DNA from: Paratinospora sagittata
Lineage: Eukaryota; Streptophyta; Magnoliopsida; Ranunculales; Menispermaceae
NCBI GenBank assembly: GCA_035771175.1
Contig: CM069589.1
Span: forward strand, 28,662,201 to 28,726,200
Direction: 5' to 3'
DNA: 64,000 nucleotides
The stretch's first letter is position 1, and each line of letters starts with the position of its first letter. The notes under the pieces are model-generated. The model was not told where the DNA came from and searched no databases. It worked only from the letters and a program-made list of their open reading frames with translations. The position numbers were made by a program, and so were the translations under genes. Shown piece after piece: positions 14,801-62,655 of the stretch.

Positions 14801-14918
14801 GCATAAACATCAAAAGAAAACTCGAAAATAATGTCTAGCAGACAAGGCATAAATCTTAAAAATGTTAGGCATATATTTTGTGTCTTTCACACAAATTTAT
14901 TTTCCTTTCAGCAAAAGA

Positions 14919-16499
14919 ATGGCCTCAAGGAAAGGAACAACTTCCACTAGCAGGGAACCAATTCCCACTAGACTAACGGAATGGTCCAAAAGAGAGGTTA
15001 TGACTATGAGGAGCATCGACAATAGAGATCTCCGCCTCCGCCCAATCCTTCATGACAAACTCGCAACACTGGATTGGTTAAATATAACCAAAGTCGAGGT
15101 TCAAGTCTCTTACAACTTGGTCAGATCCTTCAATGAAGCCATGAATTACGTAGGACTTCACGGAGATGAGATCAGCCCTAATTTGGAGACAACAATCATG
15201 GGAACGAAAATTCCTATCAATATCGAGATTATTGCTCGCCTTTTGGAGATTCCGATTGAGGAGAGGATTATTGATCCACATGAACCCCAGACAGTTGTAG
15301 AGATCGCAGAATCTAATGAACAATTGTTCAATTTCCTCGCCAAAGAGCCATACACTCAATCAACATACACCAACCTCCCAAACAATCATCTTAAGCCATC
15401 TCTTGCCGGCCTCGGAAAGATTGTATACGACAACATCTTGCCAGAAATAGGGACTAGAGGCATTATGTCAAGGGTTCAACTTCTTATGTTATACTGCATA
15501 GAGAAGAAAATTACGGTCTCCCTACCTCACATTATTATCCAACAAATGTTGAGGGTGATACAACACCCTTTAAGAAAAGAATTCCTCGGCTATGGAGTCT
15601 TGATTATGAGGATACTATCCGAGGCAAACGTCGCCACTTTCGATGGAACATCAAAGCTCATCACTGAACAAGTTACAGCATCCTCTATCTTCAAGACATA
15701 TGGCACAAGTGGAGGGGTAACTGACGAAGATGTATTCGGCACGACGATAAGAAATGCCGAAAGAAGGAGAGATCAGCATGGGCGTTGCCTTCGCAAAAGT
15801 CGACGCAAGATGCCCGTCCAAGAAGGCCCAAATAATGATTCAAATCCAAATCCTACATCAGACCCAACCCTAAATAGTGATCCAACCGATCGACCATTCA
15901 CTGACGAAGAGTTATATGCCACACTAAATCAACCTACACAAAGTCATGATAGACAAGGTACGCAAGCAAATCCACCAACTTGGAACGTGCCAACTCAAGG
16001 CACCACTTCGTACCAAAGACTTCCAACTCCTACGGTACAGTATCAGCCAGTTCCACAAGTTGTTGTGAACCAACAACAACAATATTGGGCGTCACCAAAT
16101 CTTGGAGGACACAACATCCCAATAAGCCCATTGTTTCAAACTTTTTCACCACAAATAAATCCAAATATCCAAGGGGTTCCAATTAGGGGATCCCCGCACA
16201 ATCAAAACAACTACCTTCCACCTATGAACCAATACTTTCCCCCAATGTCTATGGCCTACCCTTCACTTACGGGACAAGCGACCCATCAACCACCAATGGG
16301 ACAACCGACTAACCTACTTGAACGGTTAGATGAAATGGCATCCAATATTGCTGCACTGAAAGAGAGCCACACTAATATATTAACTCGTTTGCAAAACTCT
16401 GACGCAGAGCGTGCAAACTCTCAGCCTTCTGTTAGTAGTCGTTCTCTACGTAGCAGTAGATCTCGAAGGAGCGGTAGTAGACAAGAAAGTCACAATTAA
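14919..16499 (+). CDS. Extra intact ORF of element A (putative plant transposon protein domain)
   Basis: A 526-residue open frame from the ATG at 14919. An in-frame ATG at 14862 would add 19 residues, but a CAG acceptor-like site after a pyrimidine tract sits at 14910, favouring 14919. Residues about 25-270 resemble the 'putative plant transposon protein' domain found in polyproteins of Athila/Tat-like elements. Recognisable parts are an LVRSFNEAM-like helix, MGTKIPINIEIIARLLEIP, and MLYCIEKKITVSLPHIII. The rest is Pro/Gln-rich, then a predicted helix (LLERLDEMASNIAALKESH) and an Arg/Ser tail ending SRRSGSRQ. There is no Ty3 gag zinc knuckle. It lies between the 5' LTR and gag, where most chromoviruses have nothing. 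Unlike the downstream gag-pol it has no stop or frameshift. Function unknown; a nucleic-acid-binding or accessory role is a guess. Confidence 0.75.
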   Translation: MASRKGTTSTSREPIPTRLTEWSKREVMTMRSIDNRDLRLRPILHDKLATLDWLNITKVEVQVSYNLVRSFNEAMNYVGLHGDEISPNLETTIMGTKIPINIEIIARLLEIPIEERIIDPHEPQTVVEIAESNEQLFNFLAKEPYTQSTYTNLPNNHLKPSLAGLGKIVYDNILPEIGTRGIMSRVQLLMLYCIEKKITVSLPHIIIQQMLRVIQHPLRKEFLGYGVLIMRILSEANVATFDGTSKLITEQVTASSIFKTYGTSGGVTDEDVFGTTIRNAERRRDQHGRCLRKSRRKMPVQEGPNNDSNPNPTSDPTLNSDPTDRPFTDEELYATLNQPTQSHDRQGTQANPPTWNVPTQGTTSYQRLPTPTVQYQPVPQVVVNQQQQYWASPNLGGHNIPISPLFQTFSPQINPNIQGVPIRGSPHNQNNYLPPMNQYFPPMSMAYPSLTGQATHQPPMGQPTNLLERLDEMASNIAALKESHTNILTRLQNSDAERANSQPSVSSRSLRSSRSRRSGSRQESHN

Positions 16500-17283: not shown

Positions 17284-20200
17284 ATGCAAACCAGGAAGAA
17301 AGGAAGGCCACATACTGTTCGTCCCGCAGTGGAGGCACCTCCTGAGATTCAGGAACCAACGCCTCCGACAACAGCACAGGCCACACCCAACACTGCCACT
17401 ACATCTGGGCAGGCAATACCACCCCCACCCGCACCCTTTGTCATGCCTTTGAGCATGGAAACTTTTTTCGCCGGGTTTATTGAAGCAATAAAAGTTACTG
17501 TTCAAACGGTCGTTCGTGAGACCGCTCCCAGTCAGGTGGCCATGGTTCAAACACCTGTAAAAATTGGGTCGGAAGCTCAAACCGATTAGATTACTAAATA
17601 CAAGCGGCTACAACCTCTTACTTTCGCTGGCACCATTGAGGCTGATGAGGTGTAAAAGTGGCTGGATGAGTCAAAGAAGGCTCTTGATGCAATGGGAGTC
17701 GATGAGACTCGCAAAATTCCACTAGCAACCTACCAACTTGTTGGTGCCCCAAACACATGGTAGATCACAGTGAAAAAAGACCCAAGGGTCAATATAGCAG
17801 ATATGACTTGGCAACAGTTTGAGTCAATATTTATTGATGAGTATTTTTCCAGCGCGGTTACAAAACAGAAGCGCCAGGAATTTGCTAAGTTATATCAGGG
17901 CACCATGACCGTCAGAGAATATGCTGGAAAATTCAAAGAATTATCAGTCTACTCTTTCTCCACCATCTCAACGGAGCGAGATAAGAATGAGAAATTTTAT
18001 AATGGTCTTCGCCATGACATTCGACACGCCTTGTCGATCTTGGATCTCAAGATTTACAAGGAGGTTGTTGACAGGGCCATCAGCTTTGAACAGGAGACTA
18101 TCTTACGGGAACAACGAATGAATAAGGGCAAACAACCTGCAACGTTTTCCTCACAAGGCTTACAACAGGGCAACAAGAAGAAGCCCTACTACAATCCAAA
18201 CCCAGCCCTCCCAGCCCCGGTTTCGCAGAATGAGTCCACAACACCTGCGGCTGAACCTTCTAACCCTCACCATCAGGGTTTCCGAAATCATGGCCGTGGA
18301 GGTCGTTATGGAAGGGGTGGCCGTAGGAACGGCAATGACAGAGGTGGTGGTCGACACAACAATCAGCTAGGCCAGCAGAATAATCAGAATGGCCAGCAAA
18401 ACAATCAGCAGTACAAGCCGACTTGTTTCAACTGCGGCTAGAAGGGCCATGTAAGATATGCTTGTCCACACCTTCAGCAACCTATTTTCGTTGTTCCAAT
18501 CCAACAAGCACCACCTACTGCTAATGCCCAACCCAGGCAGAACCAACAGAACCAGGGTCAACGGAATCAGGGCAGAGCATATGCCATCGCTCAACAACCC
18601 CTCCCAGACAATAATGTAGTCGAAGGTACCTTTCTTTTGTTCAATACAATGGTGCATGTTTTGTTTGATTCAGGTGCTACGCATTCTTTTATATCATCAG
18701 CATTGGTGAGACATTTAGGCCTGCATCCTGAACCCACAAACATCACACTCCATGTCACATCACCGTTCGGATCTGGCGCTAATGTCAACTTGCAGTGTTC
18801 TCGATGTGAGCTTCGAATGTTAGAACATATAATATATGCCGATATTTTTGTGATGGATTTTGAAGACTTCAACATCATCCTCGGCATGGACTGGCTAACA
18901 CCACTGAATGCAAAGATCGAATGTATGAAGAAGCAAGTTCAGTTAACCTTGCCTACAGGAGAGTTGGTCAAGCTTCAGGGAACGAGGCAATGGATACACA
19001 AATCAACAGTTGCCCTTCTCAAGGAACAACTTCGAGCTCTATCCCTTGGCAATGAAACCAACTCACCAGCACTATACCCTCTCGAAGTACATGATGTTCT
19101 AGTCATATCTGAATTCCCAACAATTTTTCTTAATGACCTTCCTGGTCTACCTCCAGTTAGGGAATTCGATTTTGAGATCAACCTCATACCTGGGACAGGG
19201 CCTATCTCAATTCCACCATACAGAATATCAAATGTCGAACTGGTCGAATTAGACAAACAACTTAAGGAATTAGAGAGTAATGGCTTCATCCGAAAGAGTT
19301 CATCACCCTGGGGCGCTCCAGTTCTATTTGTTCGCAAAAAGGATGGTTCGTTACGACTTTGCATCAATTATCGCAAGTTGAATAACGTCACCATCAAGAA
19401 TAGATATCCATTGCCCAGGATCGATGACTTGTTCGACCAACTTAGAGATGCCAAATTTTTCTCTAAGATTGATTTACGGTCCGGTTATCACCAACTCCGG
19501 ATCTGAGAGTCGGACATCACCAAGACGGCGTTTAGAACTCGGTACGGTGATTACGAGTTCTTAGTTATGCCATTCAGTCTAACAAATGCACATGCTGCAT
19601 TCATGGATTTGATGAATCGCATATTCAGGTTATACTTAGACCGATTTGTGGTGGTTTTTGTGGACGACATCTTGATATATTCCTCAACCGAAGAAGACCA
19701 TAAAATACATTTGAAAATAGTCCTCCAGACCTTGAGAAGCCACCAACTGTATGCAAAGTTGTGTAAGTGCGAATTTTGGGCAAAGATAGTTTAATTCCTC
19801 GGCCATGTGGGTTCAGGCAATGGCATTGAGGTAGATCCTTCTAAGGTTGAAGCAGTTTTAAACTGCAAGTAGCCTACCACTGTTGCTCAGATTATGAGTT
19901 TTCTTGGTTTGGCTGGCTATTACAGACGCTTCATCAAGGACTTCTCAAAGATTGTTGAACCTATGGCCAAGCTCACTCGAAAAGACGTGCGATTTATCTG
20001 GAATCCCGCCTGTGAAGCATCATTTCAGGAATTGAAGAAACGCCTCACGACAGCACCTGTACTTATCGCTCCAAAAAATGCAATTGGATTTTCATTATAC
20101 ACCGACGCCTCTCTCCAAGGCTTAGGTGTCGTGCTAATGCAAGAAAGCCAAGTGGTTGCATATGCATCCAGACAACTGAAGATTCATGAGGGTAATTACC

Positions 20201-22004
20201 CAACGCATGACTTGGAACTTGCAGCTGTCGTATTTGCACTGAAGTTATGGCGTCATTACCTATACGGTGAACGATCGATTTGAGGTCTTCTCGGATCACA
20301 AGAGTCTTAAGTACATATACACTCAGAGAGACCAAAACCTCCGCCAAAGGCGATGGTTGGAATTCTTGAAAGATTATGACTTTCAACTCCAGTACCATCC
20401 CGGAAAGGCTAATGTTGTGGCCGATGCCCTGAGTAGAAAATCTTATGTTGCTTGCACTCTTAACTACGAAATGGGGAAGTTGGCTACAGAGTTGGAGAAC
20501 TTTAACCTACAGTTGAACATAGAGGGACCAAGACCACGACTCTCTCAATTATCAGTAGACTCTGAGCTCGTTCGAAAGATTTCAGCCGCTCAAGCCAATG
20601 ACTCTATGTTAATGGAGAAACGAGAACTTCTACTCAGTGGCCAGGACTTTCCTCATTGGTCGGTCTCAGACGACGGGGCCGTTTTCTATAAAAAATGTCT
20701 CTGTCTACCAAACAATCCTGCGGTTTGTAACGACGTGCTTACTGAGATGCATTGTTCGAGGTACGCTATGCATCCTGGGGTGACAAGATGTACAAGGATG
20801 TCAAGCGTCAATTCTGGTTTTCTGGAATGAAAAAGGCAATCGCACACTTCGTTGCTCGATGTCTCGTTTGCCAGAAAGTTAAGGCAGAACGAAGACTTCC
20901 ATCTGGACTTCTCCAGCCTTTACCTATTGGAGAATGGAAATGGGAGAACATCGCAATGGATTTTGTCACGTCCTTACCTCGCACCAATAAAGGGCAAGAT
21001 GCTATATGGCTTATCATTGACAAACTTACAAAGTCTGCACACTTCTTGTCAATAAAGTTCACGGATAATCCCGCCAAACTTGCAGAACTATATGAAAGAG
21101 AGATCGTACGCCTTCATGGCATACCACTCACGATCGTCTCTGATCGAGACCCTCGATTCACATCAAACTTTTGGGAAAGCTTCCAGAGTAGAATGGGTTC
21201 TAAGATCACTATGAGCACAGCCTTTCACCCTCAGACTGATGGGCAATCAGAGCGGCTTATCCAAATCTTAGAAGACATGTTACGATGATGCATTTTGGAC
21301 TTTAATGACGGATGGGCAAAGTATTTGCATCTAGCTGAGTTTGCATACAACAACAACTACCAAACAAGTATCGGCATGGCACCATACGAGGCTCTCTATG
21401 GTCGGCCTTGCAGATCTCCTGTATGCTGGTGAGATATGGCAGATCGACCGCAGTTTGGCCCTGAACTAGTTCAAAAGACTTCTGAGAAGATCACACTAGT
21501 AAAGGAACGACTTCATGTTGCACAAAGTCGCCAGAAGAGCTATGCTGACAAGCGGAGACAACCTTTAGAATTTGATAAGGGGGACTTTGTTTTTCTGAAA
21601 GTCCAGCCCACAAGAGGTGTCAAATGCTTTGGATCAAAGGCAAGCTATCCCCGCAATATATCGGTCCATTTCAGATCATTGAACGTGTTGGCAAACTTGC
21701 TTATCGTCTATCCCTTCTATCGTCCATGCCTAAGGTTCATGACGTTTTTCACGTATCTATGCTTCGCAAGTATCGTCCTGATCCTTCGCATATCATCCCT
21801 TTAGTCGAGGTTCGGGTTGAGGAAGGAAATACGTATCAGGAGAAAGCAATCCAGATTTTAGATAGAAAAACTCAAGAACTATGGCGACGTAGCATACCAC
21901 TTGTGAAAGTGCTCTGGGATTACCATGGCTTAGAGGAAGCAACATGGGAACTAGAAGCAACAATTAAACAAAAATACCCTGAATTATTTTCTAGTACCAA
22001 CTGA
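17284..22004 (+). pseudogene. Dead Ty3 gag-pol polyprotein of element A
   Basis: One original reading frame, now broken. Stops are at 17587, 17653, 17761, 18439, 19504, 19792, 19870, 21286 and 21430; frameshifts are near 20275, 20775 and 21620. Domains in order are gag (17284-18400), a CX2C-type zinc knuckle interrupted by the 18439 stop, protease with DSGATHSF (about 18667), RT with FVDDIL (about 19655), RNase H with YTDAS (about 20098), an integrase HHCC region (about 20750-20870), and an integrase core. The core carries MDFVTSLP, VSDRDPRF and a TDGQSERLIQ segment holding the last acidic residue. A C-terminal chromodomain-like segment (LWDYHGLEEATWELE, about 21910-21955) ends the frame. This order and the chromodomain fit the Tekay/Del branch of chromoviruses. 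Several stops are at codons one C-to-T (or G-to-A) step from Arg, Gln or Trp, consistent with decay of methylated DNA. Confidence 0.92.
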
Positions 22005-31088: not shown

Positions 31089-33590
31089 GAGCCTACTGTA
31101 GTTGTACCACAGCCATCACCTACACCCACATTAGCAGGAGATGTGATGATGCATCAGTCTGAATTGATGCAAAGGTTTATGAGAATGAAACCCTAGAAGT
31201 TTTATGGTGGTGTGAATCTCAAGTAGGCAGAGGATTGGATCTTTAACATGGAGAAGAATACAAGATCCTTAAAACTTGATGATGAGACTCAGGTGTTGTT
31301 TGCTGCACACATGTTAGAAAGTGATGCAGGGCAGTGGTGGATATCAGTGTGGACTACTGAAGGCCACATGAAGACCTGGGCTAGATTTAAGGAATTGTTC
31401 CTCGAGATGTATGTTCCTACTACAGAAAAGGAGATGAAAAAGCTTGAATTTTTGAATCTTAGGCAAGGTGATATGACAGTAAGTGAGTATGAATTTAATT
31501 TTACTCAATTGTTTGCTTATGCACCTAAATTGGTTAGAGATGAGACAGAAAAGATTTCATATTTCTTGGGAGGACTGAAGCCAATTATTCAATAGACATT
31601 GACAGTGACTGGGGTGGAGCAATACAGGCAAGCCTTTAATAGGGCTTTGAAGTTTGAGTTGGTAGAGCAAAAGAACAATATTATGGTGCAAACGACTCAG
31701 AGTGGGGCACCATAGACACAGACTACTTCTAGTAGTAAACCACAATTTTCATGGGGTAAGAAGAAATGGGGGAAGAAACAAAAGTTCAGTAAGAGTGCAC
31801 CCAGTGAGTTTCCTACTGTACCAGGAGGGGTGGTGATTCAGTCTGGTACTATTCCTTCCACACCTGTTGTTATACAGACTCGGAGTACTACGACCAAGCC
31901 ACCAGTACAACAGACTTATGCTAGAGGTAGAGGTAGAGGAGGTAAGAGTCAAGGTTTTAGAGTACCTGATACAGCTTCACAGGTGGGATCTTTTGCGCCC
32001 AGAGCACCATTCATTTGCTACTAGTGTGGACAACCCGGACTCCAGAGGTTTGAGTGTCCGAATCCACCAGTGGTGTCTCCAAGAAGCACTCCTCAACCTA
32101 TCAGTAGAGAGAAAACTAAAGTAATGACATAACCTAACCCAGAAGCATCAAAGACATTGGTAGAGGTATGATCAGTATCTGTGATATGCTTATGTATGTG
32201 CTTATTGATGTTGGTTCTACATTATCTTTTATTTTTGGGCATGTGGTAGATAAATTAAAATTTACTCCCGTTAGAGCTAGTACATGGTTGATGTTGAGTA
32301 TAGCAGCAAGGGAGAGAATCTACTCTAATATGGTTTATGAGCATTGCATAGTTAGATTGGGTAATTATGAGATGCCTATGAAGTTTAGAATTTATAGAGT
32401 TCTTAGAATTTGATGCTATCCTAGGAATGGATTGGCTAGCAGCCTATCATGCCTATGTAGACTATTTTGCTAAGAAAATTATATCCCAAATTCCTGGATA
32501 TCCTGCCTTTGAGTATAAAGGAGGAGCATCAGATAAACCAACTACTAGAGGTAGATTGGTGACAGATGATGAGAGAGAAGTGTTAGTTGGTTTGATACTA
32601 GAAGATGAAAAGACCAGCGAGATTAAGCTTGATGACATTCCTGTTGTGAAAGAGTTCCCAGAGGTGTTTCCTACAGATTTACCTGGATTACCTCCTAGAA
32701 GGGAAATTGATTTTATCATTAAGCTAATTCCTGGTACTAAACCTATTTCTATGGCACCGTATAGAATGGCGCCTAAGGAATTACAAGAGTTGAAAATACA
32801 GTTAGAAGAATTGTTGGCTAAGGGTTTCATAAACTCAAGTGTGTCACCATGGGGAGTTCCAATCTTGTTTGTTAAAAAGAAATATGGGAGCTTGAGGCTG
32901 TGTATTGATTACAGACAGTTGAACCGAGTGATTGTGAAGAATAAGTACCCTCTTCCACGTATTGATGATTTGTTTGATCAGCTGAATGAAGCTAAATTCT
33001 TCTCGAAGATTGACTTGAGGTTAGGTTACCATCAGTTGAGGATCAGGGAGGAGGATGTACTTAAGACAGTCTTTAGAACTAAATATGGACACTGAGTTTT
33101 TGGTGATGCCTTTTGGTGTGACCAATGCACCTACCATGTTTATGGATTTGATGCAGAGGGTGTTCAAGCCATATCTAGACCAGTTTATCATTATTTTTAT
33201 TGATGATATTCTGATATATTCCAAGACTCATGAGGAGCATGAAAAACACCTCAGGATGACTTTGCAAACTTTAAAAAAGCATAGGTTATATGTTAAGTTT
33301 AGCAAGTGTGAGTTTTGGATATCAGAGGTGAAATTCCTTGGTCATGTGGTGAGCTCAGAGGGAATATCCGTTGATCCAGCTAAGGTTGAGGCTATTATCA
33401 ATTGGCCAAGACTCGCCACAGTGACAGAGATAAGAAGTTTTATGGGATTGGCTGCTTATTATCGGAGTTTTGTGCAGAGTTTTTCAAAGCTGGTTGCACA
33501 ATTAACCAAGCTGACTAAGAAGAATATGTCATTTGTGTGGACAGATGAGTGAGAAAATGTTGCCTTGATTGAACTGAAAAGAAAGTTGAC

Positions 33591-49254: not shown

Positions 49255-49264
49255 CTTTTATGTA

Positions 49265-49645
49265 GGGCTTTTGACATGATTGCCCCTAAAAAATACAATA
49301 ATTTCACAAATGCCATTCATTCAAAAATATTGTCACTTTTGCCTTGTTTTACTGTTTATTGTACAGTCAGCGCACAGTCAGCTGTCCACACAAGCGCCAC
49401 GTCGGCGTAGAGGTGGATTTTTTGACCGTTGAAGGGAAGGCGTCTTTTCAAAAGACGCCTTCCCTTCAACATAAAAAAAAATTTACCGTGAAGGGAAGGC
49501 GTCTTTTGAAAAGACGCCTTCCCTTCAAATGCTTTTTTTTTAACCGAAGAGAAGGCGTCTTTTCAAAAGACGCCTTCTCTTCGGTATATTTTTTTTTTAA
49601 GCTTAAGGGAAGGCGTCTTTTGAAAAGACGCCTTCCCTTCAAAGT
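49265..49645 (+). repeat. Left terminal inverted repeat with four palindromes
   Basis: About 165 bases of unique terminal sequence are followed by four palindromes at about 49429-49470, 49487-49529, 49543-49585 and 49603-49643, spaced 56-60 bases. Each has the core GAAGGCGTCTTTT facing AAAAGACGCCTTC around a single central C or G. T-rich or A-rich spacers separate them. Mutator TIRs usually carry the promoter, so transcription toward the transposase probably starts here or just inside. Confidence 0.9.
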
Positions 49646-49726
49646 TTTTTTTATATACCCCCCGCGAGCAAACGGATCACTCGCCCCCTCCTCTCTCTGA
49701 AAGTCTTCGCCGCCGCTCCTTCGCCG

Positions 49727-49825
49727 TCGTCTCGTTCCGTCGTTTGGTCTCGCTCCGTCGCCGTCGTCTCGCTCCGTCGCCGTCGTCTCGCTCCGTCGCC
49801 GTCGTCTCGCTCCGTCGCCGTCGTT
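49727..49825 (+). repeat. Short tandem repeat next to the left TIR
   Basis: An 18-base unit, CGTCTCGCTCCGTCGCCG, is repeated about four to five times. It is CG-rich in an AT-rich surrounding and lies where a leader exon would be expected. Arginine-rich open frames on the minus strand are by-products of this repeat. Confidence 0.8.
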
Positions 49826-50079
49826 TGCAGCTGAGAGCCATTCCGCTTTAGATCTGACTGTCGTTGTTGCCATTCTCGTTCACTAAACAAAGGTGCCAGT
49901 TTTGATTTTTATTTTTTCATTTTCTTCTTCTTATTATAGGTTTGAAAATTTATTAGAAACACAAGACAGCAAATCAAAAATGTCACAAACTCCCCCGCTC
50001 TTCGGGGATGCCCTCAGCGTCGACGAACAATTTTTTCATTGTACTAGGGTGTGCGACTCGTTCAGATCATGAGTTGGAA

Positions 50080-50407
50080 CAAAAGAAAGGAGACCCTTTT
50101 TCCAGTATCAATGACCAGTAGCAATGAATAGGGTCCACGAACTCCATTCTCTATCTCCTGCTATAGCTTGAAGTGCCATACTACACTGACCTGCAATTTT
50201 AAAACAAGTGAGTTCAGAAGGGTAGAAGATGATTAAGTTATCATCACAAATGCTGTAGTATGGTTGGAACTTTCATGTTGTACTTAGAAATTTTACTTTC
50301 GTAAGTACGTGTGTTCCACCCATTCCAGAAAGCCTTCGTGCAAGAATCAGGATTTTACTAGAACCATCCATATCAAAGATCCGAGCACCATCTACCACCA
50401 ACTCATC
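50080..50407 (-). pseudogene. Captured host gene fragment, two exons, antisense in the MULE
   Basis: Exon 1 (50407-50297, minus) is preceded by an acceptor TATACAG and followed by a donor GTAAAA. It reads 37 residues without a stop, including VVDGARIFDMDG and ARRLSGMGGTHVLTK. A small intron ends TTGCAG, and exon 2 (50190 to about 50080, minus) reads VSVVWHFKL, one stop, then GPYSLLLVIDTGKRVSFLL. Correct splice sites on an otherwise non-coding strand show a piece of an ordinary gene carried as in Pack-MULEs. Exon 1 faintly recalls plant RING/WD40 (RFWD3-type) proteins, but I am not sure of the parent gene. Confidence 0.55.
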
Positions 50408-50419
50408 CTGTATATTTAA

Positions 50420-51571
50420 CTCATCCAATTGAGTTCTTCAAAAGAGGAAGAATGATGTGAATTATGAAGGAAAACATATTTATTTAATTAATCTTATTGA
50501 GTTTTAGTGATTTAAATTTATTAGGATTCTAGTATTTTATTTAGTAGAATTCTAGCTATGTTCTTGAGTAGGATTTAAGTTTTCAAATTGTAGTGGGAGT
50601 CACAATTTAGGAATTTTGATTTCTAGAAATAATGGATTGTAATAGAATACAAGCAGAGCCATAATGAATTCAAATATCAAATCAATGAGATTTTCCTGTC
50701 TTTTCTTTCCTGGTCTGCATCAAGATGTCATCATATGAAGCCCTTTCTACCTTGTGCACTAGGTATGCCCTTTTGTGTGAGCTTTCTCCTCTTTACACTT
50801 AAATGCTTAAGGAGTGCAAGGGTAACATAATTCTCTCTTTAGCATCTAAGTTGACAAGAAATAAACCTATTTAGTTTCTCAAGTGTCTAGTCCATCTCAC
50901 TACAGCTGCACTTGTTAGTCACCTGGTACGGTATTCTTTCAATGAAATCTCAAATGTACCAAAATCCCCGCTGGTCCGCACAAAAGAAAAGGAAAGAAAA
51001 GAATTGAAAAAGGTAAAACTATTCAAGTGGCATTCTATGCTCCTTTGAGGTGTTTGCTAACTCTGCTTGTCTAGGAAATGCAAGAATCGTGTGGGGTCTT
51101 TGAATGACCCTGTTTTCTATTCATCTTCTTTCTTTTCCCTAAGAAATTGGTGGTCTTTCAAAGCTTTAGTTTGTGGTTTTGTTTGCTGAGATGTTGTAGA
51201 CTGGAAACATCTTTTATTATTATTTTTTTAAGGTTTGGTGTGTGTAGATTTTTAATGAAAGACACATGAGTTATGGGATTTTTGTTGTTACGAATGTTAT
51301 TTTATATATGGGATAAAAATATTCCTGCTTGTGGTGAAAGTTTTTTATGTGAAAATTATGTGGGGAAAAAACAGTACTAAACACAATGTATGAATATGGA
51401 AAAGTTTTTTATGAACATTATTTCAGGAAGTCACCAATCATCGCCAGAGTGTGTGATTTTGCGAGTGATTTTGGTTCTTTGGCTACATTATTTTAATTGT
51501 TGCACTCATAGGCTTTAATTTCATATTTTCTTTGAGAGAATGACGATTGTATTTTGCTTATTCCCACACAG
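50420..51571 (+). other. Leader region of the MULE transposase
   Basis: AT-rich, no reading frame. The ATG at 51572 is directly preceded by TTCCCACACAG, a good splice acceptor, so the 5' leader is probably spliced and the last leader intron ends at 51571. Confidence 0.5.
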
Positions 51572-54300
51572 ATGACAAATAGACTTGTTTCCGTAATATG
51601 CTACAGTGGTGGTTCTGTAGTACATGATTCGCGAGGTGCATCATACGATAGACCGCCAGTGGGGCTGGTAAGAGTTCGATCAGGCATTGATTTTGAAGAA
51701 TTTGAAGGGGTTATTCGAGGTAAACTACAGATTTCAACGTGTGCAACGATCAATATCACATATAGATATCCTTTGCTTTTTGGCGAAAAGGATTTCAATT
51801 ATACGGTTCTTCCGATTAGCAATGAGGAAGAGCTAAGGGATATTTTTTCCATGTTGCAAGAGGTCCCACCTCCTACTAATATGGAGGTGTATGTAGAAGT
51901 TGTTGGTGGAAATCCAACCCAAGGTCGTCAATCGGGTCATCGGCGAAGCCACATGAATGTTGGCGGTCATAGTGCACGAAGATCAATGGAGCACATCGGT
52001 CCGAGTACAGCTTCATCTATTGATGCTACAGTGGATCACATGACCAATGATTCTGAAGATGACAGCCCTTCAAATGTACATTTGTCTGATGATGAATTCA
52101 ATTTTGAAGACGACGACAGTGATGAGGATGACGGACATGAGATGGATAATTTTGTTGATTTGCGTGGTCCTTTGTTGAGAGTAATTGAAAATGATGGCTC
52201 TATGTATGCATCGCCACTACGAGAAGATGGCAATGGCGTAAGCATTGAAGAAACAGAGTTACAAGACACTGACTTCCGTAGTATGGGTGATACACCAGAA
52301 CCTACCGTAGCAAGTTTTGAGCCTCCATCACCTAATTTCATGGAGCTTAATCATGAAACTATGACCCCATTATCAGACAATCATGATAACATATCCATGG
52401 GGTGGAACGAGTCACAAGATCTTTGCGAAGGACTCATATTTCCCTCAAAGGAAGACTTGCAACATAGAGTAAAACGATGTTGTATAGCCAAGCAACAAGA
52501 ATATGTTGTGGTCGATTCAGAACCCAAACTTTGGTCTATTAGGTGTAAGAAATCGAAAGATGGTTGTCAGTGGAGGCTACGGGCTTCGAAACGCAAGAAA
52601 TCGGGATTGTTTGAGATCACAAAATGCCCATTTCCACACACATGTATTTATGGATCAATGTCGCAAGATCATAGACAATTGGATTTAAAGCTAATATATC
52701 ACGAAATTTTTGATATTGTAAAGCGAGATCCTTCAACTTCTGTGTCAGCGCTACATCAAGTCATTAAAAATAATTACAAATACGATGTGCATTATAGAAA
52801 AGTGTGGCGTGCAAAAAAAAAGGTGATGGAAAAGATATTTGGTGATTGGGAGGGATCGTATAACCTACTCCCAAAATGGATGGATGCATTGAATGCTAGT
52901 AATCCAGGTTCGCACGCATTTGTAAATCACTACGAACCTGACAACAATGGGATAGTCATATTTCATCGTTCTTTTTGGGCTTTTGGTCCCTCAATTGAGG
53001 GTTTTAAGCATTGTAGGCCTATCATACAAATAGATGGTACACACTTATATGGAAAGTACCGCGGTAAGTTGCTGATCGCCACTGCAATCAATGCAGCTAG
53101 TCATATATTCCCTCTCGCATTTGCTATTGTTCATCAAGAAAATACTGACAATTGGGCATGGTTTCTAAGGAAACTTCGTTATAGCGTGACTAACAGAGAA
53201 GGCATTTGCCTTGTCAGTGATCGTCACCCTGGCATATTGAATGCAGTTAAAACAGTAGAGAATGGTTGGACCGAGCCGGAGGCATATCATAGGTTCTGTT
53301 TGAGGCATGTGGGTAGTAATTTCAATGATAAGTACCGTAACGAGAAGTTGAGAGATTTGGTCAAGGCAGCAGGGTCACAACACCAACCACGTAAGTTTGA
53401 GGCACTAATGAAAGAACTAGAGCACCAGAAAGAGGGTTGCACAAGATGGTTTAATCCCATCAGCCTGCCTAGAGAGTGGTGGACAATGGCTTACGATGGC
53501 GGGGTGCGGTATGGTTGGATGACTACGAATGTCGCTGGTTAGTCTATGCATTTACTTATTTGATTTCTCTGAGTTATTTTTTTATTGTCAATTACCGTCT
53601 GATTCGTTACCTATTTTTTTTTCCTTTAGAGTGTTTCAATGGAGTATTGAAGGGGGCTCGATTTTATCCGGTCACAGCATTGGTTCAGTTGACGTTTTAT
53701 CGATGTGTTCAGTGGTTTATCATTAGACGGCAAGAAATTGATGAAGCCATTGCTAATGGAGAGGTTTTCACAAAGTATGCGGTTCAGAAAATGAAAAATT
53801 GGGGCCTTAAGGCAGGGAACCACACTGTTACAATGATTAATCGACAGCTTGAGACATTTGAGGTTGTTACCGGTATACAAGATGTCCGTATGAACAAGGG
53901 GGGAAACAAGCAGGTGGTTCGACTAAAAGATCGTTTCTGCAGCTGCGGCAAATGGCAATGTTATGGGATTCCTTGTTCACACGTCCAAGCAGCGTGTCGT
54001 TATGCTTCGATCAATTGTGACCAATACATTGATCATTGGTACCTCCTCCAGCATTACTCTAAGTGTTACGAATCGAAGTTCCATCCCATTCCGCACGAAT
54101 CTTATTGGCCAGAATGTACTATTCGTTATACGGTGATACCTGATTCTGGTCATGTTCGCAAATCTGGTCGACCGAGGTCGTCGCGCTTAAGAAATGAGAT
54201 GGATATAAGGGAACCCTCGTCTAAGATTAGATGTAGACAATGTGGACAAGAAGGCCACAACAGGCGGAGGTGTCCAACCCTCCGTGATGGGACTGCATAA
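51572..54300 (+). CDS. MURA-type (MuDR) transposase
   Basis: Two exons, 51572-53537 and 53630-54300 (92-bp intron GTTAGT...TTTAG), total 878 residues, uninterrupted. Residues 1-110 form a PB1-like N-terminal domain; about 150-210 are acidic. About 277-355 is the MuDR DNA-binding domain (LIFPSKEDLQHRVKR, EYVVVDSEPKLWSIRCK). About 470-600 is the MULE transposase core, with D488 in IQIDGTHLYGKYRG, D550 in LVSDRHPGI and probable third acid E656 in TTNVAECFNG. The codon of E656 is split by the intron. A SWIM zinc finger follows (C759, C761, C771, H773), then a C-terminal CCHC knuckle (C857, C860, H865, C870). These proteins cut and paste DNA at Mutator TIRs in the nucleus. All catalytic and zinc ligands are present. 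Confidence 0.93.
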
Positions 54301-54514
54301 GCTATTGTTTGCCCACTTATATTTCATGTTTTCTACTTTTAAAGTCTTCTGTAACTTTTGCAATGTAATATGCCACTGTGCGGGATAGACTTTGTCATGT
54401 ACGATCTATTGTCTGATAATTATTCTCACATTTTTATCTTGTTCTAATATTTCTTTATCTACGTTTGATCGTAACATGTGGTAATTAACTATAATGTTAC
54501 TTCATTTACGGTAG

Positions 54515-56742
54515 ATGGAGCCAGGACCTTTAGATCCATCTGTACTTTCATTGCAGGCCCGTCATCGATCTGGTCCCATATGGGATGGAGAGGTAATTAC
54601 GTATTATTTTGATATTTAATCCCTTTTCAATTAAATCTTTGACTGAGAATATAATAATTTCTTTTTGCAGCCAGTTCCAGAGTTACATTGTCGGCGTAGG
54701 GAAGCCGTTGTCCACCGCACACTTCCGCTTGACCCGCGGATTATTCCATACTTGCAGCGCGCTGGTTTTTATGGGGTTGCACGTGTGGGATACATTCAGT
54801 TAGACTGGCACTTAATAACTGCCTTCATAGAGCGTTGGCGCCAAGAGACTCATACCTTCCACCTTACTTGCGGAGAAGCGACTATTACACTGCAAGATGT
54901 GGAGGTCCAATTGGGCTTGCGTGTCGATGGTCTACCTGTGACGGGATCGACCAACCTTCTTTACGAAGAATTATGTGCTGAGTTGCTCGGGTTCATACCA
55001 GTTGGAAAAGAAAGACGCGGGGGAAGATTGAGTCTCGTCACCCTTGGAGAAAGAGTTCCAAATTTACCAGAAGAAGCAACCGAAATTCAAATACAACAGT
55101 ATGCACGCGCATATATTTTGCAGCTAATTGGAGGTGGGTTGTTGTCAGACCAATCAAACAACCTTGTACACCTATGTGTTTTGCCTCTTCTTGCGGACTT
55201 CGATGTTGCCGGGACATACGCGTGGGCCAGTGCAGTGCTAGCATGGTTATATCGTCAATTGTGTCGTGCTGTTGATTATGAAAAACGAGGTGTGTCAGGA
55301 GCACTTGTACTACTACAACTATGGGCATGGGATAGATTTCCTTTTTTGGCTCCACGAAGACTGAACATTCCACGCGAGGATCATGCGGGCCCAAATGCAC
55401 ATCTGTTGCCACCACCACCATTGGCATATAGGTAAATGAGTACTTTCTTACTTAAGTCCGCAACGATCTTCCTTTTCAACATTGACTGTTAACGTTTTTT
55501 AATTTCGCCTTACTATTTGCAGGTGGAGACATGCGTTAATAAAGAAAGAAGTCTCAACGCATGTATTGAATAAATATAGAGAGACGTTGGACACTAAAGG
55601 TTTCGAAGAGGTACAATATTCCACACAATTTACATTAATGTACTCCTTATTTTTTTTCCAATGTTTTACAATTTTGATGTAAGGGGTCCATGTACAGGTC
55701 ATATGGACTCCATACACCAATGATTTGCTTGATGCGTTGCCAGAGTATTGCAAGCATGGGCGACACATATGGCACACCATTTCTCCACTCATTTGTTTCG
55801 CCATAGTTGAATTACATCGACCAGATCGAGTGTTACGTCAATTTGGCATGAGACAAACGATTCCGGAGCAATGCGACACGAGTATTGACCTTCACAAGTG
55901 TGATATGAGAAGCCAGTGTGACAGTAATTGGATTGAAAAGCACAGATATTACATTGATGAATGGCAACGCCGTGTCGATAACTTAGCAGTTGGTGAAAAT
56001 AATTATTCGGTGCCTATGGAGTACAATGATCCATATATGATTTGGTATCGATCAATAACTCGGAGGTATATGACTGAAAGCGGTGCAACAATCGATTTCT
56101 TGGTAAGAAAGTACATTATGCAATTCACATTTTCACTTATTGGTATCCTAAGTTGTAGTTATTTTCGCTAACGTATGTCACTTTTAATTTATTTAGGTTT
56201 GCAACGTGGCTCAAATGCATTTGCGCAGTGAGGTGAATGATATGACTGTAGCGAGGGACATTAACAGGATATCAATGACTACGCTACAAAGTGTGCATGC
56301 TGATTACATGATTAGGAGGGACACAGCAGAGGGACAATCATTAGCATATCATCAGAGTCCCATCACTCCTTCCGGTCGTGCTGATTCATTCACAGAGTTA
56401 CACACGTCACCATTGCATCACGATCCATCCTCGTTTGCCGATGAAATACCCGATGTTCATATCGACCCGACAGCTACTTCATTCGAGGACAATCCAACCT
56501 TGGGTGAAGGACATTGGATAGGTAGACGCCAAAGAATGCCAAGGCGAGGACGTGCATTTATAGCACATACGGCTATTGAGGCGCATGATGATCCTGGGGA
56601 TGGCCACATATCAGCTATGCCCGTTGCCGATGATCCAGCACCATCTGTGGAGCAAGTTGTTCAGGTGCCTTTGCAGCAGTATACGAGAGATCACTTACGA
56701 CGCAATAAACGACGTAAGTGGCCAATATGTGGCACAGATTGA
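54515..56742 (+). CDS. Plant mobile domain (PMD, MAIN-like) protein in the MULE
   Basis: Five exons: 54515-54592, 54671-55431, 55523-55610, 55698-56102, 56197-56742. All introns are GT-AG and the frame closes, giving 625 residues. The start follows MEPGPLDPSVL. The PMD occupies about residues 35-430, with LDPRIIPYLQRAGFYGVARV, LDWHLITAFIERWRQETHTF, ITLQDVEVQLGLRVDGLPV and LLQLWAWDRFPFL. Later segments are VIWTPYTNDLLDALP, PEQCDTSIDLHKCD and YMIWYRSITRRY. The C-terminal third is hydrophilic and ends in a basic cluster (LRRNKRRKW) that could be a nuclear signal. The PMD is known from transposons and from host genes such as MAIN and MAIL1, which act in transposon silencing and genome stability. 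It starts 214 bp after the transposase stop on the same strand. Its job in the element is unknown. Confidence 0.9.
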
Positions 56743-56860
56743 CAACTTGTATCTCAGTGTAACTTGTATATGTTTTGATAATGTTGTACTAAACATGTAT
56801 GTATACTTGCTACTTCAATTCAATTAATTTCTTTAAAGAAAATTACATTGTATAAACAGT

Positions 56861-57740
56861 AATAGCGTTGAATTATCATTTTAACTTGAATTCTGCATGG
56901 GGGTCCAAAAATTCAACCGGGCATGGGAATGGGATTCCGTCGAGTCCGGGGGAACGGGGGAGGATAGTGGGACGTGTCGGAAGTGGTCGGGTTGAAAAAA
57001 ACCACGTGGTTTGGCTTCGGTGAGGCCGAACAGTTTAGTAATAGCGTTGAATTTTCATTTTAACTTGAATTCTGCATGGGGGCTCAAAAATTAAACCGGG
57101 CATGGGAATGGGATTCCGTCGAGTCCGGGGGATCGGGGGAGGATAGTGGGACGTGTCGGAAGTGGTCGGGTTGAAAAAAACCACGTGGTTTGGCTTCGGT
57201 GAGGCCGAACAGTTTAGTAATAGCGTTGAATTTTCATTTTAACTTGAATTCTGCATGGGGGTTCAAAAATTAAACCGGGCATGGGAATGGGATTCCGTCG
57301 AGTCCGGGGGATCGGGGGAGGATAGTGGGACGTGTCGGAAGTGGTCGGGTTGAAAAAAACCACGTGGTTTGGCCTCGGTGAGGCCGAACAGTTTAGTAAT
57401 AGCGTTGAATTTTCATTTTAACTTGAATTCTGCATGGGGGTCCAAAAATTCAACCGGGCATGGGAATGGGATTCCGTCGAGTCCGGGGGATCGGGGGAGG
57501 ATAGTGGGACGTGTCGGAAGTGGTCGGGTTGAAAAAAACCACGTGGTTTGGCCTCGGTGAGGCCGAACAGTTTAGTAATAGCGTTGAATTTTCATTTTAA
57601 CTTGAATTCTGCATGGGGGTCCAAAAATTCAACCGGGCATGGGAATGGGATTTCGTCGAGTCCGGGGGAACGGGGGAGGATAGTGGGACGTGTCGGAAGT
57701 GGTCGGGTTGAAAAAAACCACGTGATTTGGCTTCGGTGAC
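56861..57740 (+). repeat. 179-bp tandem array in the MULE (about 4.9 copies)
   Basis: Copies start at 56861, 57040, 57219, 57398 and 57577, exactly 179 bases apart and almost identical. Each contains CCACGTGG, a palindromic G-box (the last has CCACGTGA), and TTCGGTGAGGCCGAA, which can form a hairpin. GC-richer than the rest of the element. It lies between the PMD stop and the right TIR. Confidence 0.92.
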
Positions 57741-57770
57741 AAAAGTACAAAATAAAAAAAAATAAAAATG

Positions 57771-58126
57771 GGGAAGGGAAGGCGTCTTTTGAAAAGACGC
57801 CTTCCCTTAAGCTTAAAAAAAAAAGGCTGAACGGAAGGCGTCTTTTGAAAAGACGCCTTCCGTCAAACTTAAAAAAAAAACATACCTCAAAAGACGCCTT
57901 CTCTTCGGTTAAAAAAAAGCATTTGAAGGGAAGGCGTCTTTTGAAAAGACGCCTTCCCTTCAACGGTCAAAAATCCACCTCTGCGCCGATGTGGTGCTTG
58001 TGTGGACAGCTGACTGTGCGCTGACTGTACAATGAACAGTAAAACAAGGCAAAAGTGACAATATTGTTGAATGGATGGCATTTGTGAAATTATTAAATTT
58101 TTTAGGGGCAATCATGTCAAAAGCCC
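57771..58126 (-). repeat. Right terminal inverted repeat with palindromes
   Basis: Inverse of the left end. Palindromes lie at about 57771-57812, 57829-57866 and 57922-57963, plus a half unit at 57886-57909 that lost one arm. Spacing is as on the left side. Confidence 0.9.
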
Positions 58127-58136
58127 CTTTTATGTA

Positions 58137-58671: not shown

Positions 58672-60790
58672 ATGGCGGACAACAGAGAAGTTGCAACGGA
58701 GCAAGAACGGGACGTTCTTGAGAGGGACAAGAAGAAGAAAAAGGTCGTCGGGGAGTTAGACGAGCCGGAAATGCAAGACGTGGAAGGGGCCATTAATGGG
58801 CATCAGGAAGTTGAGAGTGCAAAGTTGAATATGACCAGTAAAGCTTTGTGTGTGGAAGGGCATCTTTCAAAGACAAAGTTTTGTCTCGTTCCCAAAAGGA
58901 CTACAAACCTAGGACCTTCTTGGACGATGAAATCAATGATGAGATCAGAGGTTCTAAAGAGGAAAAATCAAAGACAGATGAAGAAAACCAAGAAGAAGAC
59001 ACGAATATGGAATAATAACAGCTAGCACCTTTCAAGATCAAATTAGATGATCAGAAAAAGTATAAAATAAGTCACACCCTGGGTTGCACAGCGTGCCCCT
59101 ACCGAGGTGTGGGCGCACCCCCTCGGGGCGAACGCCAGCCATTATGGATCCATAATATTGTCTCATCCCGGTACAGCCACCGCCACACAAGGACGTCTCT
59201 TGTACACGAGATCATTTGTTCGATACTATTCACCATAAATAGTACAGGGCCTCCCTCAGAATCGAACTCGAGACCTCCCTTAAGGAGTCTAATTTCGCAT
59301 TCCTAGTAGCCACTGAGCCAATGGTTCAGTTCGATTCCTAGGGAGGCCCTTCACTATTCATGGTAAATAGTGTCAGACAAATGATCTCGTGTACAAGAGA
59401 CATCCTTGTGTGGCGGTGGCTGTACCGGGATGGGATAATATTATGGATCCATAATGGCTGGCGTTCGCCCCAAAGGGGTGCGCCCACACCTGCGTAGGGG
59501 GCACGTTGTGCAACCCAGGGTGTGACAAAATATGTCTTCCATGGCGGAAAACAATCATCATTAAGTTACTCGGAAGAATCATTGGGTACCATTATATCTG
59601 CATGAAATTAAAAACCTTATGGAAACCAGAAGGTGAGTTTGAAGTCATTGATTTGGGTCATGAGTTATGTCTAGTAAAGTTCGACTGTGATGACAACTGC
59701 ATTAAAGCTCTTACGGAAGGTCCTTGGGTAATCGCAGATCATTATCTTACAGTCCAGCGATGGACCCCGAATTTTCAACAGGCCTTAGCATCCATTTCTC
59801 TTACAGTCTGGATTAGGCTACCAAGTTTGCCTATTGAATTTTATGATGAAGAAGTCTTCACAAAGATAAGTAATGTGATTGGCAAGATGATAAAAATCGA
59901 CTGCAACACTATGCTAGCTACCCAGGGCAAGTACACTCACATATGTGTAGAGTTTGATTTGAAGAAAGCTCTTGTCCCTCAGATTATGTTGGGTGACTTT
60001 TCACAAAGAGTTGAGTATGAGGGCTTTCATACAATTTGTTTCAAGTGTGGACGGTTTGGCCATTCCAAGGAGACTTGCTGGGTTGAGAAAGGGGATGTTA
60101 ATTTGGGTGGTGCAGCACAGTAGATGACGACCATGGAGACTATAGACAATCAGCAGGTTGATCGAAATGTCACCGGTGTTCGAATCGTGGATAATGGCCA
60201 CCAGACGAAATCGACGTTGTGCCCAAAAAAGGAAAGGTGCGGATCAGAAAGGTAATCAAGAGGTGGTTTTGGGGCAAAATTCTCAGTTTAGAAAGGCTAA
60301 TAGATTTTCCTCTTTGGACGTGTCAAATATAGAAGAAAATGATGCCATTGAATCCTCCAATAAGGTTGATGCTAACCCAAAAGAAAAACTTTCCCATAAT
60401 CAAGAAAGTGTCATGAGTGCCAAGATTTCCCATAATCAAGAAAGTGCCATGTGTGCCATGAATTCAGTGGAAATTATAACTGGTGATCCTAATGCCCCAA
60501 GAGAGGAATCGTTCCTTTCTTTAATAATGAAAATGCATGGAAGTGAGGGCCCCCAATTAATCGATGACTCTTAGTCCACTCATACCAATCGTGCTGCATG
60601 CAATAAACTCCATGCATCCTCCCACCCTTCGAAACCTCCCAACCCCATGGGACATGTTGTCACCCAAACGCTATCCCTTGGTGGTACCAATAAGGATGTG
60701 GATCAACCAGTTGCTCATAACCATGACAGGTCGGATAGGAGTAGAAGCTTAAGAGGTCATGACCATTTTGGCACCAATGGAGCAATTAGA
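58672..60790 (+). pseudogene. LINE ORF1 (DUF4283 and CCHC zinc finger), broken
   Basis: The N-terminal part (58672-59025) is charged, with a KKKKK block, and shifts frame near its end. After the 458-bp FB2 insertion the frame continues at 59533 with ICLPWRKTIIIKLLGR, then WKPEGEFEVIDLGHELCLVKF, LTEGPWVIADHYLTVQRW, and LPIEFYDEEVFTKI. This is the DUF4283 domain of plant LINE ORF1 proteins. A zinc knuckle, CFKCGRFGHSKETCW (about 60040-60080), follows. A stop at 60121 and further frame changes lead into a low-complexity tail with a duplicated SHNQESAM-type phrase (60388-60465). Such proteins bind LINE RNA in the reverse-transcription particle. Not functional here. Confidence 0.88.
59070..59527. 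mobile_element. Foldback element FB2 (458 bp) inside LINE ORF1
   Basis: Arms of about 200 bases are near-perfect inverted copies around a unique centre of about 60 bases (about 59270-59330). Ends are AGTCACACCC and GGGTGTGACA. A 5-base duplication AAATA flanks it (59065-59069 and 59528-59532). Removing the element plus one AAATA restores the LINE frame (KYKI then CLPW). No coding content. Confidence 0.85.
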
Positions 60791-60834
60791 TCTTCTAACT
60801 GAGTTGTTTCTTTCCTACTTTTCTAGGTTTCCCC

Positions 60835-62655
60835 ATGAAGATCATATCTTGGAATTGTCGAGGTGCAACGAGCACCAATTTTCTTCGCAATTTTAATGAG
60901 CTATGGAGGTCAACTGCCCCAGATATTTGTTGTCTTATTGAATCCAGGTGTGATGAGCCCAAAATTCCCATTCTTTCTAGGAATAGAAACATCGCTACCT
61001 TCTCTCTTGTTGCTGAAGGTCATAGTGGTGGGCTCCACCTCATTTGGAAGAAAGATAAAGTGGATCTGCAGATGACACTAGCCACAAACCAATTATTTTT
61101 GCCTCAGTCATATGATCTTTGTTTATATTATCCCCTACTAGAGTGCCAAACACACCCAATGAGAGATCATCAAAAATATTATTGGTGTCGTGCAAGGACC
61201 ATATATCTTAATCGAGGACTTTAATGATGTTACATCTATGACAAAGAAGATGGGGGGAAGATTCTTAGCTAGCCGTTCTAAGCTGTTTAATGAATTCATC
61301 AACTCCTGCCATCTCTTAGATTTGGGTTTCACAAGACCCAGATATACATGGTCCAACTATAAAATTGGTAGAGCTTTAATAAAAAAGAAACTTGATCGTG
61401 TAATGTGTAATAGTGAGTGGAGATGTCTATTTCCCAATGCCAAAATCAGTCACCTTGCCCACACTTATTCAGATCACTGCCCCATTCTCCTCAACACTCA
61501 AGCCACTCGGATGTCGTCATCTTCTTGCAAACCATTCAGATTTGAAGCCGCTTGGATGATGCATGAAAACTTCAAGGATTTCTTGGCTGTGAATTGGACG
61601 CCTCCAGTCAATTCCTATCTGGAAGCTACAAATTCTATTACCCATAAACTCAAGATGTGGAACCATGATGTGTTTGGTAACATCTTTTTCAAGAAAAAAC
61701 ATCTTTGAGCTAGAATTACAGGTGTGCAGGCGGCTTTTGGTAATAGGCACACCACTTTTCTTGCCAACCTTGAGGAATCTCTCCTTTATAATTACCAGGA
61801 AGTGCTTCAACAGGAAGGATTATTATGGATTATTATGGTACGAGAAGTTCTATATTCAGTCAGTGGCTTCGGGAAGGTGACCTGAATACTTCTTTCTTTC
61901 ACACGAGTACTCTATCAAGGCGTGCCCAGAATAGAGTGGATGCTCTCAAAATTAATGGTGACTGGTGCTCTGATACTCTTCTATTAAAAGATCATGTGGT
62001 TGACTATTTTAATATGTTGTATACATTGGATGTTAATCAAGATATTTCTACCATCCCTCACACCCATCCGACTGCTCTGACTCATGAAGATAGAGACTCA
62101 TTACCTCTTCCTATCGCTGCTGCAAAGATTCATAGAGCCCTCATATCTATGAGCCCTTTGAAGGCTCTGGGGCCTGATGGCTTCCAAGCCGGTTTCTACC
62201 AGAGAAATTGGGAAATTGTTGGTCTGTCCGTGATTGAGCTAATCCAAAACATTTGGCACAAAAATCAAATGCCCCATGGCCTAAATCTTACCTACTCCCT
62301 TATTTCTAAGGTGGAGCATCCATAAATGATTAAGCAATTTAGGCCTATTAGTCTCTGCAATGTTTGTAACAAGATTTTGACCAAAGCCAGGGTAAGCAGA
62401 ATAAGACCTTTGCTTCAAGGTTTGGTGGGTGAATTCCAAAGTAGTTTCATTCTGGGGCGTAGCATGGTTGACAACATCATTGCTACTCAAGAAGTGATCT
62501 ACATTATGAAAAAGAAAAAAAGGGAAAGGCGGTCTCATGGCAGTGAAGATAGATCTGAAAAAAGCGTATGATAGGATTAGATGGGATTTTCTGAAGCAAA
62601 CCTTAAAGAATTTCAATTTTCCCACTAGTCTTATTGAGCTCATCATGGTTTGCAT
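60835..62655 (+). pseudogene. LINE ORF2 (endonuclease and reverse transcriptase), broken and truncated
   Basis: The apurinic-type endonuclease begins MKIISWNCRGATSTNFLRN. An IESR segment carries the acidic residue; a frameshift near 61190 follows. The next segment is EDFNDV (the usual GDFND has lost its Gly), then RYTWSN, KKLDRVM and SDHCPILL with the catalytic histidine region. A second shift lies near 61710-61800. RT starts with LSPLKALGPDGFQAGFY-like residues (about 62150), FRPISLCNVCNKILTK, FQSSFILGRSMVDNI and, after another shift near 62515, KIDLKKAYDRI with the first catalytic Asp. The YVDD-type motif is absent because element E begins at 62656, right after LIELIMVC. Confidence 0.9.

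Follow-up and report, generated by a model that had tools for sequence, protein, structure and literature searches.

Known Systems

Mutator-like elements (MULEs) with a plant mobile domain (PMD) gene have been described before. The portions of Ikeda 2017 (PMC5418596) drawn on here report that MULEs captured host PMD-C twice, with fusions in grasses and Amborella, and speculate that a captured PMD serves against silencing, whereas those of Dupeyron 2019 (PMC6446971) place PMD in MULE groups 42 and 45-50, in both sense and antisense orientation. Within those portions, both the presence of PMD genes in MULEs and the anti-silencing idea are already known. Here, we describe a complete Mutator-like element at positions 49265-58126 of a 64-kb stretch of Paratinospora sagittata contig CM069589.1 (the window, by which we mean the whole stretch that was analyzed). 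What is new is the match between predicted PMD folds and VANC21, a 179-bp tandem array, and the exchange of the PMD gene and this array as a unit between subfamilies.

Like the elements of Ikeda 2017 and Dupeyron 2019, this one combines a Mutator-type transposase with an accessory PMD protein in a mobile element; those of Ikeda 2017 are fusions, however, whereas here PMD is a separate gene on the same strand, with its own start, and is followed by the array. VANDAL21/Hiun of Arabidopsis is also a MULE that has a transposase, an accessory protein (VANC21), and variable tandem repeats in its non-coding DNA, but there the repeats lie in introns and upstream regions, not 3' of the accessory gene. 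VANDALs have absent or short terminal inverted repeats (TIRs), in contrast to 158 nt here, though this is a weak criterion given exceptions in a table of Dupeyron 2019 (PMC6446971), where VANDAL group TIRs of 46-174 bp appear in the part used here. The predicted fold of PMD relatives resembles that of VANC21, and there may be a weak DUF1985 kinship, but the accessory protein in the window scores as PF10536. The host proteins MAIN, MAIL1, and MAIL2 have a full PMD as well, with the same fold predicted for a MAIL2-type protein; they are, however, encoded by host genes that promote silencing of transposable elements, whereas in a tree the window PMD groups with Stephania PMDs and lies near Vitis MULE-fused PMDs. 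Finally, MuDR of maize (mudrA and mudrB) is an autonomous MULE with two genes, which are convergent, but the accessory protein here is a PMD protein.

The Element and Its Two Genes

The element is probably an autonomous TIR-MULE, and its family has transposed recently. It has a MULE domain scoring over its cut-off, 158-nt TIRs, and a perfect 10-bp target site duplication (TSD; the class range is 8-11 bp), and a full-length PF10536 domain inside the same TIR- and TSD-bounded element makes it a PMD-bearing MULE. The left TIR (49265-49422, + strand) and the right TIR (57969-58126, - strand) are 95% complementary, and the TSD CTTTTATGTA is identical on both sides (49255-49264 and 58127-58136). The original prediction of a complete element with near-identical TIRs, a perfect 10-bp duplication, and a 214-bp gap between two same-strand genes is therefore sound: both genes are on the + strand, and the gap (54301-54514, 214 bp) ends in an AG that abuts the PMD ATG.

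The transposase coding sequence (51572-53537 and 53630-54300) has one GT-AG intron and encodes 878 aa without internal stops. A Pfam scan returned PF10551 (MULE) at 65.3 bits against a cut-off of 27.6, DBD_Tnp_Mut at 45.5 bits against 25, and SWIM at 28.7 bits against 19.6, and a Transposase_mut match under its cut-off. Exon 1 holds the N-terminal domain, of a type labeled PB1 in the relatives P0133 and P0149, together with DBD_Tnp_Mut and the MULE core; exon 2 holds the catalytic E (by motif), SWIM, CCHC, and the stop. Of the DDE residues, SWIM finger, and CCHC knuckle previously said to be kept, SWIM is backed by its Pfam score, whereas the C-terminal CxxCxxxGHxxxxC knuckle was recognized by eye, as were the residues that we take, from their motifs, to be the DDE triad.

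The PMD gene consists of five exons (54515-54592, 54671-55431, 55523-55610, 55698-56102, and 56197-56742, all +) separated by four GT/AG introns, and the last exon encodes a basic C-terminus and ends with a TGA stop at 56740-56742. PF10536 covers residues 58-427 of the 625-aa product over its whole profile (1-347 of 347, E 2.5e-87), in agreement with the expected 625-aa protein with a full PMD and a basic C-terminus, and both genes are uninterrupted and spliced as had been proposed.

The transposase is most similar to a Stephania protein (47% over 100%) and then to one from Vitis (45% over 100%), and the best-scoring database match of the PMD protein is from Elaeis. A tree built from 124 PMD domains (a quick tree with many long branches, which includes MAIL2-type rows and no rows labeled PMD-A or PMD-B) places the window PMD in a group with three Stephania rows at an SH-aLRT (Shimodaira-Hasegawa-like approximate likelihood ratio test) value of 99. 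By path length, Vitis proteins that carry a fused MULE transposase come next, and the window PMD does not group with the MAIL2-type rows. Because Stephania and then Vitis come closest both in the transposase search and in the PMD tree, the comparison hints that the two genes may have been inherited jointly over a long time.

Transposase-derived segments occur in 22 of 123 database PMD proteins (5 core and 17 N-terminal), a count that should not be read as a rate, since the transposase search itself supplied three of these five core cases (P0127, P0137, and P0146). Within the P0046-P0067 range, proteins of several eudicots combine a transposase-type N-terminal domain with PMD and fall in a supported 13-row clade; these are possibly a domesticated MULE-PMD chimera. 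Two other database proteins (P0002 and P0093) carry PMD plus PF05477, which we take to be SURF2, apparently through the joining of a PMD exon to another gene, and AAA fusions are also found.

Copies and Recent Mobility

A TIR query over the 1.29-Gb genome (4,049 contigs) gave 188 matches, and 40 of 2,696 candidates were scored; copy counts are therefore lower bounds. The 40 candidates represent 30 places including the window, and the other 29 were analyzed as 30 loci, since a single element is represented by both L012 and L013. Transposase and PMD frames are both intact in five of the 30 places (the window, L009, L012, L025, and L027). L025 is the L012 insertion again, within a duplicated segment that is >99.7% identical, and the five places are therefore four independent insertions, at odds with the earlier view that whole copies are rare. 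The flanks of L012/L042 (C6:19.67 Mb) and L025/L040 (C26:16.2 Mb) extend for at least 854 and at least 995 bp at 99.8% identity in inverted orientation, and the duplication is either a recent segmental duplication or assembly redundancy. L038 likewise resembles a duplicate of L029, with which it shares end sequence and layout.

Other copies with the PMD gene, which the original prediction proposed to look for, are present among the 30 places. A complete open PMD also occurs in L011 and in L032 (15 nt shorter, in frame), so that a full-length open PMD frame whose four introns all retain their splice sites is present in 7 of 30 places, or six distinct insertions. L023 and L026 have a PMD with a single premature stop, the gene is incomplete in L010, L014, L015, L031, L034, and L035, and the remaining places have none. 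Besides the five places with both frames, the transposase frame is intact in L026 and L035.

Members of the family have transposed many times, and recently. Perfect 10-bp TSDs, all different, flank the window element, L009, L011, L012, L014-L017, L020, L021, L024, L026, L027, L030-L032, and L034, while L035 has a perfect 11-bp TSD, for a total of 18 distinct insertions with a perfect duplication. Imperfect TSDs were seen in L018 and L019 (9/10) and L033 (8/9); for L010, L022, L023, L028, L029/L038, L036, and L037, the TSD was not found or one end lay outside the compared sequence. Shortened copies without either gene also transposed.

Exchange of the PMD Gene and Array

Copies with enough sequence can be divided into subfamily A (the window, L009, L010, L011, L023, and L032) and subfamily B (L012, L025, L026, L027, and L031), with L035 set apart. 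When the window is compared with L025, the upstream parts differ by 3-4% in the transposase exons, 11% in the gap, 8% in PMD exon 1, and 10% in intron 1. From PMD exon 2 on, which is about where the exchanged block starts, the exons differ by 0-1.2% and introns 2-4 by 0-3.3%, and the 115-bp 3' untranslated region (UTR) is identical. In non-coding sequence this amounts to 39/383 differences upstream versus 5/386 downstream (P 3e-8), counts that were derived from the divergence percentages.

The similarity extends through the array. Compared with the window, the array consensus (179 positions) has two differences in L012, L025, and L027 and four in L026. Past the array, the tail and TIR show 29/385 differences between A and B, as against 7/370 within A (window vs. 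L009), and the former value stands apart from the 5/386 of the block's non-coding sequence (P 1.5e-5). The 5' non-coding leader (49661-51571, +), which has a 19-bp tandem repeat at 49714-49824, is largely conserved across subfamily A and mostly not alignable in B. Because divergence of the block is low while the termini and leaders have diverged, we conclude that a block comprising the PMD gene and the array was exchanged between the subfamilies. Selection alone was considered as a cause of the low A-B divergence of PMD and rejected, as introns 2-4 and the 3' UTR are equally low and both flanks are not.

The array itself (56858-57739, 179 bp x 4.9) begins 115 bp past the PMD stop and adjoins the right TIR region, at one end of the element only. 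The unit is present in the window and 25 of the 30 other loci, but not in L013, L022, L028, L030, and L037. Array size ranges from 2.0 to 10.9 units where Tandem Repeats Finder gave a 179-bp row; for L023 the program reported 357 bp x 2, and it gave no row for L018 and L021. The window array has four copies of a perfect 14-bp palindrome, AAACCACGTGGTTT, which is present 2-10 times in 22 of the 25 other array loci. It could, as a guess, be a binding site, which would make the array a candidate cis-target.

Selection on the Two Frames

Between A and B, the pairwise ratio of nonsynonymous to synonymous substitution rates (dN/dS) is 0.28-0.36 in 15 transposase pairs and 0.12-0.44 in 20 PMD pairs, all of the latter below 0.45. 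These pairs are non-independent (L012 and L025 are one insertion) and include copies with premature stops (in the transposase of L011 and L031 and the PMD of L023 and L026); frames with a length not a multiple of three were excluded. Fourteen chosen pairs were also compared with a neutral simulation of 3,000 runs without CpG effects. None of the 3,000 runs matched the four transposase pairs between A, B, and L035, and the four A-B PMD pairs gave P values of 0.054, 0.029, 0.018, and 0.000, whereas all six within-subfamily pairs (two transposase, four PMD) look neutral. The possibility, raised earlier as a check, that PMD evolves neutrally between copies thus fails for three of four A-B pairs (P < 0.05), the fourth being at 0.054, and is not rejected for the four pairs within A or within B. 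Constraint on PMD is supported by these sequence comparisons, with few changes to judge by because the block exchange erased most of those between A and B.

What the PMD Protein May Do

The original prediction offered two roles for the PMD protein, a modulator of host silencing or a second transposition factor. This is still the right pair of hypotheses, and the balance between them tips toward a DNA-binding anti-silencing factor because the predicted folds of two PMD relatives, one of them a MAIL2-type protein, match VANC21 in Foldseek. The DNA-binding fold of VANC21 is found in these predicted structures at 8% identity in the structural alignment, and the likeness suggests an anti-silencing job. 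In the scheme that we put forward, the transposase would move the element, the PMD protein would be a VANC-like, sequence-specific DNA-binding protein with its cognate site within the 179-bp array, and its binding there would relax silencing by the host, both of the element itself and of those non-autonomous copies in which the array persists. On this view, a single fold would have two branches, PMD and the VANC21 DNA-binding region, and would serve MULEs (VANC, MULE-PMD) as well as the host (MAIN/MAIL). We consider this module of transposase, VANC-like PMD, and array about evenly balanced between right and wrong as an explanation of the element. A wider proposal, in which PMD is a VANC-type DNA-binding fold, the PMD and array of MULEs form an anti-silencing module exchangeable between subfamilies, and MAIN/MAIL are domesticated or shared members of the fold that bind DNA themselves, is advanced only tentatively and is probably not correct in full.

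Several observations weigh against the anti-silencing scheme. The models that match VANC21 were made for relatives of the window PMD (54% and 44% identity to it over 70% and 78% of its length), not for the window's spliced protein, the superpositions are loose (root-mean-square deviation 14.5 and 5.9 Å), the DNA-contact residues of VANC21 are not mappable, and a common fold proves no function. A DUF1985 match at E <= 0.1 was seen in 11 of the 66 PMD relatives, the best (6.3e-4) lying under the gathering score, and the window PMD had no DUF1985 row at E <= 0.001, the only threshold applied to it. A PMD profile against PDB sequences gave weak low-complexity rows with VANC21 not among them, and a PDB search with the window PMD sequence gave nothing up to E 1. 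The arrays of L019, L021, and L034 lack AAACCACGTGGTTT, neutrality of the A-B PMD pairs was rejected only at the P values given above, and the within-subfamily pairs look neutral. L035 is without PMD exons 1-2 yet has its perfect 11-bp TSD; because it and the gene-less copies moved, PMD would not be needed in cis, unless the losses came after insertion. Lastly, MAIN and MAIL1 promote silencing, the opposite sign, according to the portions of PMC7156037 and PMC9899485 used here.

The PMD protein might instead be a mudrB-like second transposition factor that binds the subterminal array and helps end assembly or reinsertion, with silencing not its target. An accessory ORF (open reading frame) next to the transposase recalls MuDR, whose mudrB is apparently required for integration (PMC6446971, in the part cited); the array is subterminal, beside the right TIR, and retained in most shortened copies analyzed; and a DNA-binding fold would suit this role too. 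We nonetheless think it unlikely, as the array is at a single end, the predicted fold match is with an anti-silencing protein, and L035 combines a damaged PMD with a perfect TSD, though trans supply or later damage could account for the last point. Protein contacts offer another route, quite unlikely in our estimate: the element's complete PMD could compete with host MAIN/MAIL1 for PP7L or for each other, weakening silencing without binding the element. MAIN, MAIL1, and PP7L do interact and are needed for transposable element silencing (PMC7156037 and PMC8616336, as far as cited), and the same predicted fold match comes from a MAIL2-type protein, but the travel of the array with the PMD gene would be left unexplained.

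A very unlikely arrangement, compatible with the other readings, is a single transcription unit spliced onto the AG before the PMD ATG to give a transposase-PMD fusion. This AG may be a 3' splice site because that Met is where several database PMD fusions begin: annotated fusions in Vitis (P0058, P0127) and Heliosperma (P0137) are joined at or near it, AG|ATG (54512-54517) is kept in 9 of 9 aligned copies of both subfamilies, and MULE-PMD fusions are described in the cited part of Ikeda 2017 (PMC5418596). The known fusions are database gene models, however; the transposase frame closes with a stop codon of its own downstream of the CCHC knuckle, PMD has a separate ATG, and an AG at this place has a chance of about 1 in 16 and is shared by descent. 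A view of PMD as a passenger gene, captured but of no function to the element, is highly improbable, being disfavored by frame conservation and A-B constraint. Captured gene pieces are frequent in MULEs (PMC6446971, in the part cited), changes within subfamilies look neutral, and several copies have lost parts of PMD; on the other hand, the gene is kept open with its splice sites in six insertions, A-B dN/dS is below 0.45 in every pair, and the Stephania-then-Vitis kinship hints at joint inheritance of both genes, though the top-scoring PMD match is from Elaeis.

The predicted sharing of a fold with VANC21, whose structure has been solved on its target DNA, opens the way to a direct test: PMD proteins should bind DNA, with the element's array as the candidate site. 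If true, the fold kinship would join MULE-PMD and VANC anti-silencing, which are treated separately in the portions of the literature cited here.

Other Features of the Window

Both TIR regions contain near-perfect palindromes of ~36-40 nt (e.g., GAAGGGAAGGCGTCTTTTCAAAAGACGCCTTCCCTTC) in tandem at 41-59-bp spacing, giving a foldback-like appearance. There are four such hairpin units on the left (49429-49645), and those on the right lie at 57770-57966, where one is only half. Neither the hairpins nor the 179-bp array had been mentioned in the original prediction.

Rfam at the gathering threshold and a tRNA scan gave no match, and a protein search with a 545-aa ORF at 14862-16499 of the window found no homologue at E <= 0.001. 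By eye, ORFs at 17770-21288 and 32427-33552 resemble pieces of Ty3/gypsy gag, protease, reverse transcriptase, and integrase. Near the right side of the element, at 59506-62325, there are ORFs that by eye look like those of a long interspersed nuclear element (LINE), with a zinc-knuckle ORF1 and pieces of endonuclease and reverse transcriptase.

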